A DNA stretch of 64,000 nt from Candidatus Peregrinibacteria bacterium. Lineage in GTDB: Bacteria; Patescibacteriota; Gracilibacteria; UBA1369; LOWO2-01-FULL-3. Under the pieces are notes generated by a model. The model had not been told where the DNA came from. It did no database searches and worked only from the letters and a program-made list of their open reading frames with translations. Positions 6,892 to 14,946 of the stretch are shown here, one piece after another; within the stretch, counting starts at the first letter, position 1, and the number at the start of each line of letters is the position of its first letter. A program made the translations under genes and the position numbers. The stretch spans positions 62,001 through 126,000 of the forward strand of contig JAPLYN010000003.1 in NCBI GenBank assembly GCA_026395515.1, read 5' to 3'.

Positions 6892-7140
6892 CTAATCTTC
6901 AATTTTTTCACAATAGACACTGGTCACTGGAATCAAACTTTCTAATTTTTGCATGACCGTTTTTACGCTTAAACGAGGCGTAGAAATCACCATGTGAATA
7001 TCAGAAAAAACTTCTTTATCATCAATTGGCGCAACGTCGAGAGAACGAATGTTTACTTCGAATTTTCGCAGTCTGGTAGCAATTCTGGCAAGTACACCAA
7101 CTTCATTTTTCACTCTAAGTGTGACCCTGTAATAAGTCAT
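6892..7140 (-). CDS. ilvN: Acetolactate synthase small (ACT) subunit
   Basis: Regulatory subunit of acetohydroxyacid synthase. It is a single ACT domain of 82 residues: YYRVTLRVKNEVGVLARIATRLRKFEVNIRSLDVAP, with the Gly and Asn-rich ligand loop (VGVLARI and VNIRSL). It is short, like E. coli IlvM rather than the 160-residue two-domain IlvN. ACT domains of this family bind valine or another branched-chain amino acid and set feedback sensitivity. The start lies inside the end of ilvB (26-base overlap), so translation is coupled and 1:1 production is expected. Confidence 0.88.
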   Translation of the reverse strand: MTYYRVTLRVKNEVGVLARIATRLRKFEVNIRSLDVAPIDDKEVFSDIHMVISTPRLSVKTVMQKLESLIPVTSVYCEKIED

Positions 7141-8911
7141 CTTGTTTGTATTTATGAGATTTATCTTTTAATAAGTCGGCGTCGCAAAGTGCTTGATCGC
7201 CGAGTGCAGTATTTGGTGGAACCATAGGATAAACGTGTTCTTCCGGATCAACCATAAAAGTAATCAATGTAGGTCCATCAACTTTTCTGGCAGCGTGAAT
7301 TGCCGCTTCAGCTTCCTCGTATGTGCTAGCGCGCCAAGCGGGAATACCAAAGGCTTCTGATAATTTCACGAAGTCAGGATTTTTAAATTCGGAATGAGAA
7401 ATGTTTCCTTTGAATAAAAGATTTTGCCACTGTCTTACCATTCCCAAAACTCCATCTTCCATAATGCACATTTTCACCGGTATTTTGTATTCAGCTAAAG
7501 TAGCTAATTCTTGAACGTTCATCATGAAACCACCATCTCCACTGATAGACCAAACTTCGCGCTCAGGACAGCCAACTTTCGCACCCATAGATGATGGCAC
7601 ACCATAGCCCATAGAGCCAAGACCACCGGAAGAAAGATGAGAATTCGGATGTTTAAAACGATAAAAACGGCTGAGCCACATTTGATTACGACCAACGTCG
7701 CCGGCAACAATGGCTTCACCATTTGTAATTCTAGAAAGCATATCTACAATGCGTGGCTGGCTGAGAAAACCAGGACGCGCTTCTTTGTTGATTGTAAAAT
7801 CTAGGAAACCATATTCTTTTTTCCATTCAGTAATTTGGGACCACCAATTTGTGTAGAGTGTTTTGTGGTTTTCGAGAAGAGAATTGGCGCGAGTGAGAAC
7901 TTCTTTAATATCGCCAGGAAGAGGCAATTCCGTTGGAACAATTTTACCAATTTCAGAAGGATCAATTTCAATATGAACGAAAGTTTTTCCTTTAATAAAA
8001 GTGTCGAGTTTGCCAGTAATTCTATCGTCAAAACGACAACCAATACCGATAATTAAATTTGAATTGTGAATGGCATAATTGGCTACAGCATCACCATGCA
8101 TACCGATCATACCAATCCAATTTTTGTGGCCTTGAGGAAAATTTCCCATGCCGAGAAGAGTGGAAACAACTGGAATATTATGCTTTTCAGCGAAGGCGAC
8201 GAGCTCTTTTTGGGCGCGTGAAATTTCTACTCCATGACCGGCGATAATGACTGGACGAATGCCGTCGCGTTCGAGAATAGCGTCGAATTTTTGAATGTCG
8301 CGGTCAGTGCATTTTTCTGGAATTGGATTGTAGCCAGGAAGATCCATGGTCGGATTTTCATCATATGGCTCTTCTTGAAACCAAACGTCTTTTACGAGAT
8401 CAATATGCACGGGACCCGGACGACCGGTGGAAGCTAAATGAAAAGCTTCTTTCACAATTCGTGGAATTTCTTTGGCTTTATTTACTAAGTACGAATGCTT
8501 AACAATTGGCATGGTCATACCAATTACGTCAGTCTCTTGGAAAGCATCGGTACCGATAAATTCTTCGACAACTTGTCCGGTAATGTAAACCGTTGGAACG
8601 GAATCCATCATGGAATTAGCAATCGACGTCATGAGATTTGTGGCTCCAGGACCAGAAGTTCCGAGTGAAACACCAACCTTGCCAGTAGCACGAGCGTAAC
8701 CATCAGCAGCGAAACCACCACCTTGTTCCTGACGAGGAAGAATGTGACGAATTTTGTGACCGTACTGGTTTAATTTATCGTAAAGAGGGAGCACAACGCC
8801 GCCCGGAATTCCGAACATCGCGTCCATGCCTGCGTCAACGAGAGCTTTGCAGAAAATGTCGGATCCGAGGTGAAGTGCTGAGGCTGATTTTTGGGAATTA
8901 TTTTGGTTCAT
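7115..8911 (-). CDS. ilvB: Acetolactate synthase large subunit
   Basis: Thiamine-diphosphate enzyme that condenses pyruvate with pyruvate or 2-oxobutyrate, the first common step of Val/Leu/Ile synthesis. At 598 residues it has the three AHAS domains: N-terminal pyrimidine-binding part with FGIPGG and the activating glutamate in PRQEQGGGFAADGYARATG (near residue 62), a central FAD-binding domain, and a C-terminal diphosphate/Mg domain with SGDGGFMMNVQELATL (GDG at 458). The usual Asn-Asn that closes the ThDP motif is Glu-Asp here (485-486), before the well conserved LGMVRQWQ. There is no Shine-Dalgarno; an upstream leader ORF overlaps the start. Subunit partner IlvN overlaps the 3' end. Confidence 0.93.
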   Translation of the reverse strand: MNQNNSQKSASALHLGSDIFCKALVDAGMDAMFGIPGGVVLPLYDKLNQYGHKIRHILPRQEQGGGFAADGYARATGKVGVSLGTSGPGATNLMTSIANSMMDSVPTVYITGQVVEEFIGTDAFQETDVIGMTMPIVKHSYLVNKAKEIPRIVKEAFHLASTGRPGPVHIDLVKDVWFQEEPYDENPTMDLPGYNPIPEKCTDRDIQKFDAILERDGIRPVIIAGHGVEISRAQKELVAFAEKHNIPVVSTLLGMGNFPQGHKNWIGMIGMHGDAVANYAIHNSNLIIGIGCRFDDRITGKLDTFIKGKTFVHIEIDPSEIGKIVPTELPLPGDIKEVLTRANSLLENHKTLYTNWWSQITEWKKEYGFLDFTINKEARPGFLSQPRIVDMLSRITNGEAIVAGDVGRNQMWLSRFYRFKHPNSHLSSGGLGSMGYGVPSSMGAKVGCPEREVWSISGDGGFMMNVQELATLAEYKIPVKMCIMEDGVLGMVRQWQNLLFKGNISHSEFKNPDFVKLSEAFGIPAWRASTYEEAEAAIHAARKVDGPTLITFMVDPEEHVYPMVPPNTALGDQALCDADLLKDKSHKYKQDDLLQGHT

Positions 8912-9095: not shown

Positions 9096-10145
9096 CTATT
9101 TCTGTCTTTCTGGTCTTAGTGATCTTACTGTTTTTCCTGCCTGCCAAATTTCTTGGTTGGCCATGTCTTCTAATTCTTTATTCAATTTTGCTTTGTAATC
9201 AGTATCGCTGTTGGCCTCGAGTACTATACGAGTTTCATTTCCAGTAGCAACGCTATTATATAATTCCTCAAAAACCGGTTCTGTAGCGGCGCGGAATTTA
9301 TGACGCCAGTCGAGGGCGCCGCGTTGTGCAGTGGTAGAACAATTTGCAAACATCCAATCCATACCGTTTTCTCCAATCAGTGGATAAAGGCTTTGCGTAG
9401 CCTCTTCTACGGTTTCATTGAAAGCCTCTGAAGCACTGTGACCTTTCTTGCGAAGCAAATTAAATTGAGCTTCCATGAGTCCGGCAATCGCACCCATAAG
9501 CACGCCACGTTCACCAGTTAAATCGCTGGTAACTTCTTTTTCAAAAGTAGTTGGAAAAAGAAATCCTGAACCAATTGCTATACCGAGAGAAAGTGCACGC
9601 TCTTTAGCTTTACCGGTAGCATCTTGAAAAATTGCGAAGCTGGAATTGAGTCCTTTCTTCTGCAAGAAAAGAGTGCGGAGAGAACGACCGGAACCCTTCG
9701 GAGCAACAAGAAAAACGTCGATATCTGTTGGCGGAATAACTTCTGTCTGATCTTTGAAAACAATTGAAAATCCGTGTGAAAAATAAAGAGCTTTTCCTTT
9801 TGTGAGGTGAGGTTTTATTTTTGGCCAAAGCATTTTTTGACCGGCATCGGAAAGCAAATACATAATAATTGTAGCTTTTGCAGCCGCTTCTTCGAGTTCA
9901 AATAAAGTTTCTCCTTCGATAAATCCATCTTCTTTTGCCTTGTCCCAAGAAGGTGTGCCTTTGCGTTGTCCGATAATAACTTTCACACCATTATCGCGGA
10001 GATTTAGAGCCTGACCAGGTCCTTGCACGCCGTAACCGAGGATAGCAATTACCTCTGTGCTAAGCGTTTCCTGAGCTTTTGCGAGAGGGAACTCCTCACG
10101 CGTTACAACTTCTTCTTCCATGTTACCAAATTTCATTTTTGCCAT
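9096..10145 (-). CDS. ilvC: Ketol-acid reductoisomerase
   Basis: NADPH- and Mg-dependent isomerase/reductase that turns acetolactate or acetohydroxybutyrate into the dihydroxy acid. The 349-residue protein has the Rossmann motif GYGVQGPGQALNLRDNG (near 38), the phosphate loop GQRKGTPSW, the VAPKGSG(R)SLR segment and the Mg-ligand pair DLTGERGVLMGA with ETVEEATQSLYPL. Length and motifs such as EEVVTREEFPL recall Bacteroidetes-type class I KARI, from memory of that family, so transfer from that group is possible. Only 12 bases separate it from ilvD, and a 184-bp regulatory gap follows before ilvB. Confidence 0.94.
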   Translation of the reverse strand: MAKMKFGNMEEEVVTREEFPLAKAQETLSTEVIAILGYGVQGPGQALNLRDNGVKVIIGQRKGTPSWDKAKEDGFIEGETLFELEEAAAKATIIMYLLSDAGQKMLWPKIKPHLTKGKALYFSHGFSIVFKDQTEVIPPTDIDVFLVAPKGSGRSLRTLFLQKKGLNSSFAIFQDATGKAKERALSLGIAIGSGFLFPTTFEKEVTSDLTGERGVLMGAIAGLMEAQFNLLRKKGHSASEAFNETVEEATQSLYPLIGENGMDWMFANCSTTAQRGALDWRHKFRAATEPVFEELYNSVATGNETRIVLEANSDTDYKAKLNKELEDMANQEIWQAGKTVRSLRPERQK

Positions 10146-10157
10146 ATGGTTGTGATG

Positions 10158-11852
10158 TTAATTATTGAATTTGTCAGTGACTGCGCCGTACATTGGCGAG
10201 CTAACTGTTTCTATATATTTCCGAAGAACTCCATTTTTATATTTTGGTTCCGGTTTTTTCCAAGCAGCGCGGCGAGAAGCGAGTTCTGCGTCTGAAATAT
10301 TCACCGCGAGTAATTTCTTTTTTGAATCAATTGTGATGATGTCGCCATTTTTCAGTAATCCAATTGGACCGCCTACATAAGCCTCTGGAGCGACGTGACC
10401 AATTACTAGTCCATGAGTGCCTCCGGAGAATCTTCCATCGGTAATTAAGGCTACAGAATTGCCAAGACCTTTACCCATAAGAGCAGACGTAACGGAAAGC
10501 ATTTCGCGCATTCCTGGGCCACCTTTTGGACCTTCGTTACGAATTACAATTGTATCGCCAGCTTTTACTTTATCGTCTTCAATAGCTTTAAAAGTTTCTT
10601 CTTCGCTTTCAAAAATAATTGCCGGACCAGTATGATCGAAAACTTTGAGACCTTTTACTTTGGCTACAGCTCCTTCTGGAGCGAGATTGCCTTTAAGAAT
10701 TACGATAGGTCCAGTGGCCATAACTGGATCTTTTGTAGTGTGAATTACGTCCTGAGTTTCTGATGGAAGTGAAACGTTTGCGAGATTTTCAGCAACAGTT
10801 TTTCCAGTCACCGTCATGCAATCTCCATGAAGCAATCCAGCGTTGAGAAGAATTTTCATAATAGCAGGAAGACCTCCAGTTTGATGCAAATCTACGGTGA
10901 GATATTTTCCTCCTGGTTTCATATCTGTGAGCTGAGGAGTCTTATCAGAAATGCGACTAAAATCTTCCATCGTGAAATCCACGCCGGCAGTGTAAGCCAT
11001 AGCCACTAAGTGCAAGACTGCATTAGTAGAACCACCAAGTGCGAGAGCCACTGTAGCAGCGTTTTCAAAAGACTTTTTAGTCATGATATCTCTAGGCTTG
11101 AGATCTAGTTTTATAAGTTCAATTAGCTGCTCACCGGCACGTTTGCATTCGGCGATCTTGTCTGTAGAAATTCCTGGAGCAGTGGAGCCGCCAGGTAGAG
11201 ACATTCCGAGAGCTTCAATCGCGGAAGACATAGTATTTGCAGTGTACATTCCACCGCAAGAACCAGGTCCTGGACAAGCATGACATTCCACATCTTTAAA
11301 TTCTTCTTTGGAAATTTTACCTGCTTGATATTGGCCTACAGCCTCGAAAATACTGACGATATCGATGTCTTTTCCTTTGTGTTTTCCTGGCATAATTGTG
11401 CCGCCATAAATAAAAATGGCAGGAGCATTTACGCGGGCAATAGCCATGAGAGAACCCGGCATATTTTTGTCGCAACCACCAATACAAATCATACCGTCGA
11501 AGCGCTGAGCGCCAGCAACAGTCTCGATAGAATCAGCAATAACTTCACGACTAACGAGAGAATATTTCATACCTTCGTGGCCCATGGAAATTCCGTCAGA
11601 AACAGTAATTGTATTAAACATTTCTACGGCAGCACCTGCTTTCTGAGCAGCTTCTTTGGAGTGCTTGGCGAGTTTATCGAGATGCATATTGCATGGAGTA
11701 ATTTCGCTCCAGCATGAGGAAACTCCAACTAGTGGTTTTTCAAAATCTTCATCTGTAAAACCAGTGGCGCGAAGCATGGCACGGCCAGCAGCACGGGCGT
11801 TGCCGTCGGTCATCATCGCACTGCGTTTTTTTAAATTATTGTTGGTATTCAT
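10158..11852 (-). CDS. ilvD: Dihydroxy-acid dehydratase
   Basis: Fe-S enzyme that dehydrates the dihydroxy acid to the branched-chain 2-oxo acid. The 564 residues include the cluster cysteines in GGCDKNMPG (near 127) and [20 protein letters not shown] (near 200) and the C-terminal [19 protein letters not shown] signature. Length matches the family. The start has no Shine-Dalgarno (AAAAAAATCCC precedes it) and overlaps the stop of a short upstream ORF as ATGA, so translational coupling is likely. Part of the ilvE-D-C-B-N transcript. Confidence 0.95.
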
Positions 11853-11977: not shown

Positions 11978-12904
11978 TTAATAAACCGGCTTACACCATT
12001 TGCTGAATTCTTTCATTTCGTTGTAAGCGGCTTTGCTATAAAGATCGCTAATTTTTTTGCTAATTGGTCCTTGTTTCCCAGAGCCAATAGTACGGTGATC
12101 TACAGAATAAATAGGAGTTACTTTCGCTGCAGTTCCAGATAAAAATGCTTCATCAAAAGTATAAAACATTGAGCGATCGAAATTTTCTTCGCGAACTTCG
12201 ATGTCCAAATATTTACAAATCTCAATCAAACTGCGACGAGTAATTCCATTCAAAATATTGCTGCTAAGTGGAGGTGTCCAAACCACTCCATCTTTAACTC
12301 CAAAAATATTCGCACCACTAGCTTCACAAACCTTACCATCGCGATTTAAGAATATTGGCTCATCATAGCCATTCTTTATCGCATCAGTTTTTGCTAAAGC
12401 GGAACTAGCGTAAGCACCAGTCATCTTTGCTTTCACAGAAAAAACATCATCATCAAAACGTCTCCAGCTAGAAATACAAACATTCAATCCTGCGCCTTCT
12501 TTGAAATATTCCTGCAAAGAAATCATGTAAATTGCCACATCATCATCTTCATTATCAAAACGTGGAGTGAGCTGAGTAGAGCCGGAATATAGGACAGGAC
12601 GAATATAAACATCGCCTTTAACTTTATTTTTCATCAAAAGTTCCATGATAATTTTCTCAAACTTTTTGTAGTCCATTTCCAATTGCATACCAGTAATTTT
12701 TGCTGATTCCTCAAAACGTTTAAAATGATCTTCTAATCTGAAAAGATAGAGATTTTTTTGCTTTTCATTCCAAAAACCGCGGATTCCAGAAAAACAACCA
12801 AGTCCGTATTGAATAGCTTTTGCTTGAATTGGCACTACTGCATCTTCAATCTTGCAAACTTTTTTGCGAATGTAGGCGAAGGGAAATGTTTTGCTTATTG
12901 CCAT
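11978..12904 (-). CDS. ilvE: Branched-chain amino acid aminotransferase
   Basis: PLP class-IV aminotransferase for the last step of Val, Leu and Ile synthesis. The 308-residue length is typical. Landmarks are YGLGCFSGIRGF near residue 33, the PLP lysine in VKAKMTGAYASSALAK (Lys160), and the cofactor-phosphate region EASGANIFGVKDGVVWTPP followed by NGITRRSLIEI, then FLSGTAAKVTPI. It begins 11 bases after the threonine-synthase fusion gene and is co-transcribed with it. A second class-IV enzyme is encoded at 23306. Confidence 0.92.
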   Translation of the reverse strand: MAISKTFPFAYIRKKVCKIEDAVVPIQAKAIQYGLGCFSGIRGFWNEKQKNLYLFRLEDHFKRFEESAKITGMQLEMDYKKFEKIIMELLMKNKVKGDVYIRPVLYSGSTQLTPRFDNEDDDVAIYMISLQEYFKEGAGLNVCISSWRRFDDDVFSVKAKMTGAYASSALAKTDAIKNGYDEPIFLNRDGKVCEASGANIFGVKDGVVWTPPLSSNILNGITRRSLIEICKYLDIEVREENFDRSMFYTFDEAFLSGTAAKVTPIYSVDHRTIGSGKQGPISKKISDLYSKAAYNEMKEFSKWCKPVY

Positions 12905-12915
12905 AAATTTGCGGG

Positions 12916-14769
12916 TTATTTTTTAGGTTTAAAATTTTTCAAATAGAGGAAGTTGTAGCACTTCTCAAAAGCGCTGACAGAAGCCACAATTACGTCCGGA
13001 GAAGTGGCGTGAGCGTGGATTTTGTATCCATCTTTATCCACTGCGGTCATAGTAACTTTTACAGTCGCTTCTACACCACCGGTAAAAATTTCTACGTTGT
13101 AATCGGTAAGACGAATGGAAAGTTTATCGTGATCTTTAATGCTAGATTTTAGAGCGGTGATGATGGCATCTACGGCACCAACTCCGCTAGCCTGCCCAAT
13201 TAATACCTTATCGCCGTAACGAACTTTGATGCTGGCGCTGGCTTGCTTGTACTTTGAAGTTTTGGCTTCAAAATCAATGATTTCGAGATATTTATCTTTG
13301 GAATTATATTCATCGAGTTGCTCCTCAATGATGTTTTGCAAATCTTGTTTAGTAATTTCTTTTCCTTTAGTTTCAAATTCTTTGATACTGCTGACAATAG
13401 TTTTCAAAACGGCAGGATTTGTATCGATACCAAATTCGCTGTGAATAATTTTCTTCAAATCTTTTTCAGCCGGAATCTTAGTCCACAAAATTTTGGTCTT
13501 ATTCTTAATTCCTTCAGATTGAATTTGATATAATTTATATTTTAAATAGTTATCAACTTCTTTGATATCCGGATCAATTGTTGGTGGTTCCGGAATCATT
13601 TTCACGGCTGATTTTGGATCTTTTAATCCATTACCGGTAGCCACACAAACAATGACATCATCTTTTTTGAAGAAACCTTCTTTGCTTAATTTTGCGACGG
13701 CAGCCATTGGTAAAGCACCAGATGGTTCTACGAAAATTGCTTCTTCTTTGGCTACACTTTGTTCCATCATTAAAACGTCTTCGTCACTGACAGACACTGC
13801 AGCACCATGAGAATCTTTCAAGGCTGTGAGAACTTTTGGTCCGTCAAAAGGCATACTTACGGCAACAGCGCTGCAAACAGTATTTGGCTTCTCTATGCGC
13901 ACCATTTGTTTGCTCTTGGAATTAAAAGCTTTCACCACGACATTGCAGCCTTCAGGTTGAACAGCAATAATTTTTGGTAAAGATTCTATAAGTCCGAGTA
14001 ATTTCAATTCCACAAAACCTTTCCAAATCGCGGAAATATTTGTACCAACTCCGACAGGACAGAGGACATAGTCCGGAGCTTTCCAGCCGAGCTGTTCGGC
14101 AATTTCATAAGCCTGAGATTTCTGACCTTCCAAACGGAAAGCGTAATCACCAGCAAGATAGAAACCGTGTCTCTTAGCCATTTCTTCAGCAAGAGCAGCG
14201 CATTCAGAATAACTAGCACGAACCTGAATAATACGAGCACCGTAGGAAAGAGTCTGAGCGAGCTTACCAATAGGTGTGCCTTCTGGAACGAGTACATAAC
14301 AAGGAATCTTCGCTAAAGTGCAGTAAGCGGCAACAGAAGCAGCCATATTACCGGTAGAAGCAAAACAGACGGCCTTCGCTCCCATTTCCAAAGCTTTAGT
14401 AATTTCCACAAGAGTTCCACGGTCTTTAAATACACCTGTTGGATTAGCTCCTTCATTCTTGATGTAGAGATTTTTTAGATTAAATTTTTTGGAAAGATTG
14501 CGACAGTGGTGAAGGGGAGTACCACCTTCATTCAAAGTAACAATTTTTTCCAAATTTAAAATTGGATAAAGTGTCAGATATTTTAAAGCTGAAATAGGAG
14601 AATTTTTGAGCGCGTACAGGTTCAAACGCTGTTTAATAAAGTCGTAATTGTAAACCACATCCAAAGGACCTTTGCATTTCAAACAAACAGTACAGGTCTG
14701 ATGTTCATCAAACTCGGCCTTACAGTCTATGCAGCGAAGTGTGTAGAAATCCTGATTTACGGTGACCAT
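12916..14769 (-). CDS. thrC: Threonine synthase fused to a LeuA-type allosteric domain
   Basis: A 617-residue fusion. Residues 10-35 form a zinc-ribbon-like start (Cys13, 16, 26, 29, 32). Residues 36-395 are a fold-type II PLP enzyme of the threonine synthase kind, with the PLP lysine in NPTGVFKDRGT (Lys115), STGNMAASVAAY (138-149) and a late CVATGNGLK. Residues 430-617 match the C-terminal linker and regulatory domain of 2-isopropylmalate synthase: KGKEITKQDLQNIIEEQL, GVGAVDAIITAL (529-540), DYNVEI, then SPDVIVAS. That domain binds Leu or Ile in LeuA and citramalate synthase. No ilvA is seen, so the enzyme may supply threonine, or possibly 2-oxobutyrate, under end-product control. First gene of the operon. 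Confidence 0.85.
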   Translation of the reverse strand: MVTVNQDFYTLRCIDCKAEFDEHQTCTVCLKCKGPLDVVYNYDFIKQRLNLYALKNSPISALKYLTLYPILNLEKIVTLNEGGTPLHHCRNLSKKFNLKNLYIKNEGANPTGVFKDRGTLVEITKALEMGAKAVCFASTGNMAASVAAYCTLAKIPCYVLVPEGTPIGKLAQTLSYGARIIQVRASYSECAALAEEMAKRHGFYLAGDYAFRLEGQKSQAYEIAEQLGWKAPDYVLCPVGVGTNISAIWKGFVELKLLGLIESLPKIIAVQPEGCNVVVKAFNSKSKQMVRIEKPNTVCSAVAVSMPFDGPKVLTALKDSHGAAVSVSDEDVLMMEQSVAKEEAIFVEPSGALPMAAVAKLSKEGFFKKDDVIVCVATGNGLKDPKSAVKMIPEPPTIDPDIKEVDNYLKYKLYQIQSEGIKNKTKILWTKIPAEKDLKKIIHSEFGIDTNPAVLKTIVSSIKEFETKGKEITKQDLQNIIEEQLDEYNSKDKYLEIIDFEAKTSKYKQASASIKVRYGDKVLIGQASGVGAVDAIITALKSSIKDHDKLSIRLTDYNVEIFTGGVEATVKVTMTAVDKDGYKIHAHATSPDVIVASVSAFEKCYNFLYLKNFKPKK

Positions 14770-14785: not shown

Positions 14786-14813
14786 AAAAAAAATCTCCGG
14801 TGTTACCCAGAGA
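14786..14813 (-). terminator. Attenuator terminator of the ilv operon
   Basis: On the minus strand TCTCTGG (14807-14813), loop GTAACA, CCGGAGA (14794-14800), then eight U (14786-14793). The left arm is shared with the antiterminator, so the two structures exclude each other. It lies 16 bases before the first structural gene. Confidence 0.82.
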
Positions 14814-14841
14814 GATGTTGGCGCGTGGCATTCTCTCCAGG
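14806..14841 (-). promoter_or_regulatory. Antiterminator hairpin of the ilv attenuator
   Basis: CCTGGAGAGA (14832-14841) pairs over ten positions, two of them G-U, with TCTCTCTGGG (14806-14815), taking up the terminator's left arm. The same GGAGAGA can instead pair with TCTCTTC inside leader codons 7-9 (14870-14876). This gives the classical 1:2, 2:3, 3:4 set. Confidence 0.75.
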
Positions 14842-14843
14842 GA

Positions 14844-14894
14844 CTAGAGGATAATAATCACAATAATGAGAAGAGATAACGCGAGCTTTTTCAT
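14844..14894 (-). CDS. ilvL: ilv leader peptide, 16 residues, Ile/Leu/Val-rich
   Basis: Sequence MKKLALSLLIIVIIIL: five Ile, five Leu and one Val, with an uninterrupted run from residue 8 to the stop. It starts about 18 bases after the predicted transcription start and ends just before the antiterminator. When charged tRNA-Ile, tRNA-Leu or tRNA-Val is scarce a ribosome would stall on these codons and mask segment 1, so that segments 2 and 3 pair and transcription continues. Function follows E. coli ilvGMEDA logic; the sequence itself is unrelated to that leader. No Shine-Dalgarno is visible. Confidence 0.8.
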   Translation of the reverse strand: MKKLALSLLIIVIIIL

Positions 14895-14918
14895 AATTGA
14901 AAAATACTTTGTGAGCTG

Positions 14919-14946
14919 ATTATAGCAGGGACAAGATGCTTGTAAA
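14919..14946 (-). promoter_or_regulatory. Promoter of the ilv operon
   Basis: On the minus strand TTTACA (14941-14946), a 16-bp spacer and a perfect TATAAT (14919-14924). Confidence 0.8.

Follow-up and report, generated by a model that had tools for sequence, protein, structure and literature searches.

The window analysed here is a 64,000-nt stretch from a genome of the Peregrinibacteria/Peribacteria, within the CPR (Patescibacteria), whose source assembly spans 1.30 Mb in 6 contigs and is 99.9% complete. Taxonomy and the nearest named genomes, all Candidatus Peribacteria and Peregrinibacteria MAGs, confirmed the CPR origin that a sequence-only reading of the window had considered probable. 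On the minus strand lies an operon for branched-chain amino acid (BCAA) biosynthesis. Its first gene (12916-14769) encodes a 617-aa protein that combines a PALP domain (PF00291) with a LeuA allosteric domain (PF08502) and is called threonine synthase by NCBIfam. It is followed by ilvE (branched-chain aminotransferase, 11978-12904) and ilvD (dihydroxy-acid dehydratase, 10158-11852), both above the NCBIfam cut-off, and by ilvC (ketol-acid reductoisomerase, 9096-10145; TIGR00465) and ilvB (acetolactate synthase large subunit, 7115-8911; TIGR00118), likewise above cut-off.

Upstream of the operon, on the same strand, a -35 box TTTACA (14941-14946) and a -10 box TATAAT (14919-14924) are separated by a 16-nt spacer, and most relatives' leaders are preceded by a similar TTTACA/TTGAC-type box with 15-17 nt spacing. 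From the promoter position, the RNA is predicted to start at about 14912. A short open reading frame of 16 codons plus TAG, MKKLALSLLIIVIIIL, runs from its ATG at 14894 to the stop at 14844 and contains the run LLIIVIII, in which Ile/Val/Leu codons 8-13 act as the control codons in our folding model. The earlier description of a 16-codon leader behind this promoter was correct. A comparably Ile/Leu/Val-rich leader in the right place arose in only 4 of 3000 dinucleotide shuffles, and leaders of like composition were found in 11 other lineages.

Three helices can form downstream, and they are mutually exclusive. Segment 1 (UCUCUUC, 14876-14870) falls within codons 7-9 of the leader and pairs over 7 bp with GGAGAGA (14838-14832); this part lies within segment 2, CCUGGAGAGA (14841-14832), which in turn pairs over 10 bp with segment 3, UCUCUCUGGG (14815-14806), to form the antiterminator. 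Segment 3 contains the terminator 5' arm, UCUCUGG (14813-14807), which alternatively pairs with segment 4, CCGGAGA (14800-14794), in a 7-bp terminator helix with one G-U pair, followed by a U8 tract (14786-14793) that marks the predicted premature RNA 3' end. All seven bases of the terminator 5' arm are engaged by the antiterminator, and the terminator lies 17 nt upstream of gene 1. Sequence and fold upheld the 10-bp antiterminator and the 7-bp terminator with eight U, and the positions first given for promoter, leader, pairings and U tract were correct to the base. The 1:2 helix was also placed correctly as a 7-bp pairing, but it is longer than had been claimed, with five further outer pairs in the MFE fold.

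Taken alone, the window locus is only suggestive, because its statistics are modest: the MFE z-score is only -1.75, the antiterminator outperforms shuffles at p = 0.017-0.036, and the duplex test of the 1:2 helix gives p = 0.098. It is the comparative data that make the case convincing. The antiterminator test compared the duplex energy between the leader-stop region and the terminator 5' arm against dinucleotide shuffles; the stretch searched for duplexes at first excluded antiterminators that overlap the stop codon of the leader and was widened post hoc by 18 nt into the ORF, which brought back the trp cases. With this test, p was at most 0.05 in 11 of 12 BCAA cases (Fisher 2.2e-13), and the antiterminator also outperformed shuffles in both leu cases and all five trp cases. 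Among other intergenic terminators used as a control, 9 of 59 passed, and at least four of these nine proved to be a thr, two trp and an ilv terminator. The 1:2 pairing was weaker over the 12 BCAA leaders, yet present overall (Fisher 1.3e-4); both Fisher values assume independent lineages, which holds only partly for the closest family. Across 78 intergenic terminators, leaders meeting an Ile/Leu/Val, WW or HHH criterion nearly all preceded cognate genes, and the distance from leader stop to terminator was 22-44 nt (median 28; 25 cases).

We then modelled a ribosome footprint at various positions on the leader and folded the RNA 3' of it. In this model, a ribosome at the control codons and one at the stop codon select opposite structures. 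Without a ribosome, the terminator forms with a probability of 0.98; when one of codons 8-13 occupies the A site the antiterminator prevails (0.65-0.88), and from codon 14 to the stop the terminator does so again (0.89-0.98), as it does with the ribosome at codons 5-7. Folding with and without the leader ORF masked, as first advised, gave the terminator in the unmasked RNA and the antiterminator with codons 8-13 occupied. Relatives' leaders switched at equivalent positions in the same model, and for some of them (G011, G018, G041 and G054) the 1:2 protector helix of default termination was absent from the predictions.

In the mechanism that we propose, RNA polymerase would start just upstream and a ribosome would begin on the leader ORF. 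When charged tRNA-Ile, and also tRNA-Val and tRNA-Leu, is plentiful, the ribosome would reach the TAG and cover segment 2 with its footprint, leaving segments 3 and 4 to form the terminator, so that transcription would stop at the U8 tract. When these charged tRNAs are scarce, the ribosome would stall within the Leu-Leu-Ile-Ile-Val-Ile run of codons 8-13 and melt segment 1, whereupon the freed segment 2 would pair with segment 3, no terminator would form and the operon would be transcribed. Without translation, 1:2 pairing would lead to termination by default. We infer that such stalling takes place in vivo, with isoleucine as the main signal.

No clear Shine-Dalgarno sequence is visible in the window leader or in any relative's leader, and for this reason translation of the leader ORF is taken as an assumption. 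In the leaders of G011, G013, G010, G106, G052 and G041, the AUG lies no more than about 2 nt from the predicted RNA start, suggesting, on the promoter consensus alone, leaderless initiation of the leader peptides. The leader starts concerned lie in loci L004, L005, L006, L054, L065 and L115.

Among genomes of the order that carry ilvB, 16 were testable; in 11 of these an attenuator heads the BCAA operon and all elements are kept despite diverged sequence and different head genes, and none is visible in the other five (G001, G034, G037, G040 and G065). The initial proposal had named as refuting it relatives that retain the operon but lose the leader codons or the alternative pairing; for the most part the relatives came out in its favour. 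G012, in which a contig end cuts the locus, lies outside these 16. In G001, a 569-aa gene (L050:4675-6384) directly precedes the head gene, where the attenuator would be. Orthologous operons of the same family carry the diverged peptides MKRLILIISVLIIIL, MHKFATIISIVVIIIF, MNKSFSIISFVIIDL, MKYFAQAIIAIIIIL, MKNVSIIGIIINTRY and MHMQRVIVIGLIIIPLNQER and nevertheless keep the layout of leader, antiterminator and terminator. Beyond this closest family the sequences are unrelated, the same three parts recur, and the element follows whichever gene heads the operon: it precedes ilvE in G052 (MIFPRSELVLVEIIILFS) and G041 (MKTSPKYIIGIIIIPR) and ilvB in G044 (MEKNLHLIVSLVLI), three genomes with unrelated helix sequences, and in two genomes from other families of the phylum it precedes ilvB (G106, MKKQLALVLSLIINTPTGV) and the fusion gene (G185, VNFIRNSIIISVIIIAA). 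A covariance model built from six close leaders (R1) matched only those six in 89 genomes; because a homology search cannot follow a sequence that drifts so quickly, leaders and terminators were scanned gene by gene. Alignment of related leaders with MAFFT/RNAalifold, as had been advised, recovered the terminator and nothing else, since helices that replace one another fail to align once their sequences drift.

Elements of the same kind precede operons for other amino acids. In the same genome, an attenuator with an LLLL leader, MKNRIITNDVQNLGLLLLGRLILR, lies before the leuC-led leucine operon (L129, contig C6, minus strand, terminator at 1746); it is kept in G002 and G003 and occurs as a variant in G011. 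A thr attenuator with the leader MNAAKIIITTTTTTTIM, whose seven Thr codons give TTTTTTT, lies at L158:2599-2720 (contig C2; also L160) and has a switch-capable terminator, and its counterpart in G002 reads MNKFALIITTTTTTTIM. The aspartokinase-homoserine dehydrogenase ORF that follows this leader is without about 200 N-terminal residues found in G001, G003 and G011. A thr leader of G034 turned up independently among the terminators chosen as controls, and showed no switch in the footprint folding model. Relatives' trp leaders carry WW or WWW (G035, G065, G047, G010, G027 and G025; loci L134, L135, L136, L140, L141 and L026) and end 22-28 nt upstream of a terminator that itself lies about 20 nt upstream of trpE or trpB. 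The trp operon at L026 has a TrpR-family gene in addition to its attenuator, as in E. coli, and some operons, including the trp operon of the window's own genome, have a TrpR-family repressor gene instead of an attenuator. Leaders with HHH before hisS-hisG in G050 and G074 (L117 and L118) are candidates only, their antiterminators not being significant (p 0.24-0.29). Several other apparent leaders before hisS/hisG were rejected, as they encode the C-terminal portion of TrpR-family (HisR-like) repressors.

These leaders bear on what else the short ORF might be. It could encode a small hydrophobic membrane peptide with a function of its own, whose transcript the terminator merely ends; MKKLALSLLIIVIIIL does resemble a membrane-spanning peptide, but nothing in the peptide is conserved beyond its Ile/Val/Leu content, the equivalent leaders of leu, thr and trp operons have Leu, Thr and Trp runs instead, and the conserved antiterminator pairing would have no role, which makes this reading very improbable. 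We give as little credence to a switch governed by another sensor (a T-box, a riboswitch or an RNA-binding protein) with an incidental leader ORF. Terminator/antiterminator pairs are common to all such switches, and within the order some operons for his and trp have a TrpR-family repressor gene as a neighbour; against this, Rfam, including its T-box and His, Leu, Thr, Trp and other leader families, gave no match above the gathering cut-off in the window and 15 related loci, the leader takes most of the roughly 130 nt between the -10 box and the U tract and leaves no space for an aptamer, and the cognate codon runs follow the operon. Hardly worth entertaining is the idea that the terminator simply ends transcription of the 143-aa gene upstream (15380-14949) and that the ORF is there by chance: that gene is co-directional and its stop lies 2 nt before the promoter, yet a consensus promoter stands between it and the terminator, a chance leader is as rare as the shuffles showed, and the element is conserved in G018, G050 and G054 although the upstream gene differs.

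We therefore hold with high confidence that the element is a ribosome-mediated transcription attenuator of an isoleucine/valine(/leucine) biosynthetic operon. The original interpretation and anatomy of an attenuator upstream of an ilv operon are supported, except that the head gene had been misnamed: it is a PALP + LeuA_dimer fusion and not a classical ilv gene. Besides this fusion, which scores as threonine synthase, the genome's only PALP genes are TrpB and a canonical E. coli-type ThrC, both identified by reading their sequences; with a separate ThrC and otherwise only TrpB, there is no IlvA among the genome's PALP proteins. RidA is a deaminase that clears threonine-dehydratase intermediates, and a RidA gene adjoins the fusion gene in relatives. 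The fusion probably serves as the threonine deaminase that the isoleucine pathway would otherwise lack, and may represent an unrecognised feedback-regulated form of that enzyme; it would supply 2-oxobutanoate for isoleucine, in agreement with the isoleucine-weighted leader.

The enterobacterial ilvGMEDA and ilvBN operons are governed by leader attenuators, and attenuators of this type were reportedly described by Vitreschak et al. 2004, a study to which PMC1262725 refers. The present element shares with them a leader rich in Ile/Val/Leu codons, the alternative helices 1:2, 2:3 and 3:4 and a terminator before the ilv operon, whereas its leader is shorter (16 codons), its head gene is another one, it has no Rfam match and no Shine-Dalgarno sequence is visible. 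The attenuators thrL and trpL of E. coli follow the same logic as the thr leader MNAAKIIITTTTTTTIM and the relatives' WW trp leaders; their sequences are otherwise not comparable, and no Rfam leader family matches. Actinobacterial ilvB leaders (PMC1262725), such as that of Corynebacterium ilvBNC (PMC10272879, PMC11857589), similarly place a short Ile/Val/Leu ORF and a terminator before ilvB. In Actinobacteria, however, ORF and candidate terminator overlap, and for Streptomyces it is contested whether the codons matter (PMC1262725); in the present element about 30 nt separate the end of the ORF from the terminator, and the antiterminator is strong. Leader-peptide attenuation, which the sequence-only reading had placed in Proteobacteria, is indeed documented there but also in Actinobacteria (PMC1262725) and for a his leader of Firmicutes (PMC2965389). 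A full-text literature search, which covered few subscription journals and so does not prove priority, found no attenuation or leader peptide described in Patescibacteria, CPR or Peregrinibacteria, in line with what had first been supposed; the report of the first complete Peribacteria genomes describes them as making few amino acids and does not mention attenuation (PMC4736985).

In summary, the mechanism is familiar and the major lineage is new to it, and the window very likely holds a real, classic ribosome-mediated attenuator in a CPR lineage for which we found none described. The published reach that we found, comprising Proteobacteria, Actinobacteria and a few Firmicutes, would now extend to a reduced-genome CPR lineage and to several amino-acid pathways. 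Whether ribosome-stalling attenuation, often through a leaderless-initiating ribosome, is a general means of amino-acid sensing (Ile, Leu, Thr, Trp and perhaps His) in biosynthesis-competent CPR seems to us evenly balanced; if so, the mechanism would be far commoner than the literature suggests, and either ancient or repeatedly invented. Since the sequences are unrelated between families, these leaders offer a good case for how attenuators are kept or reinvented. Inducible expression in Patescibacteria still needs development, according to a 2024 review (PMC11665869), and the elements would provide natural parts for it. For the organisms themselves, they imply tight transcription-translation coupling in a CPR lineage and would add amino-acid-responsive regulators where few are known.
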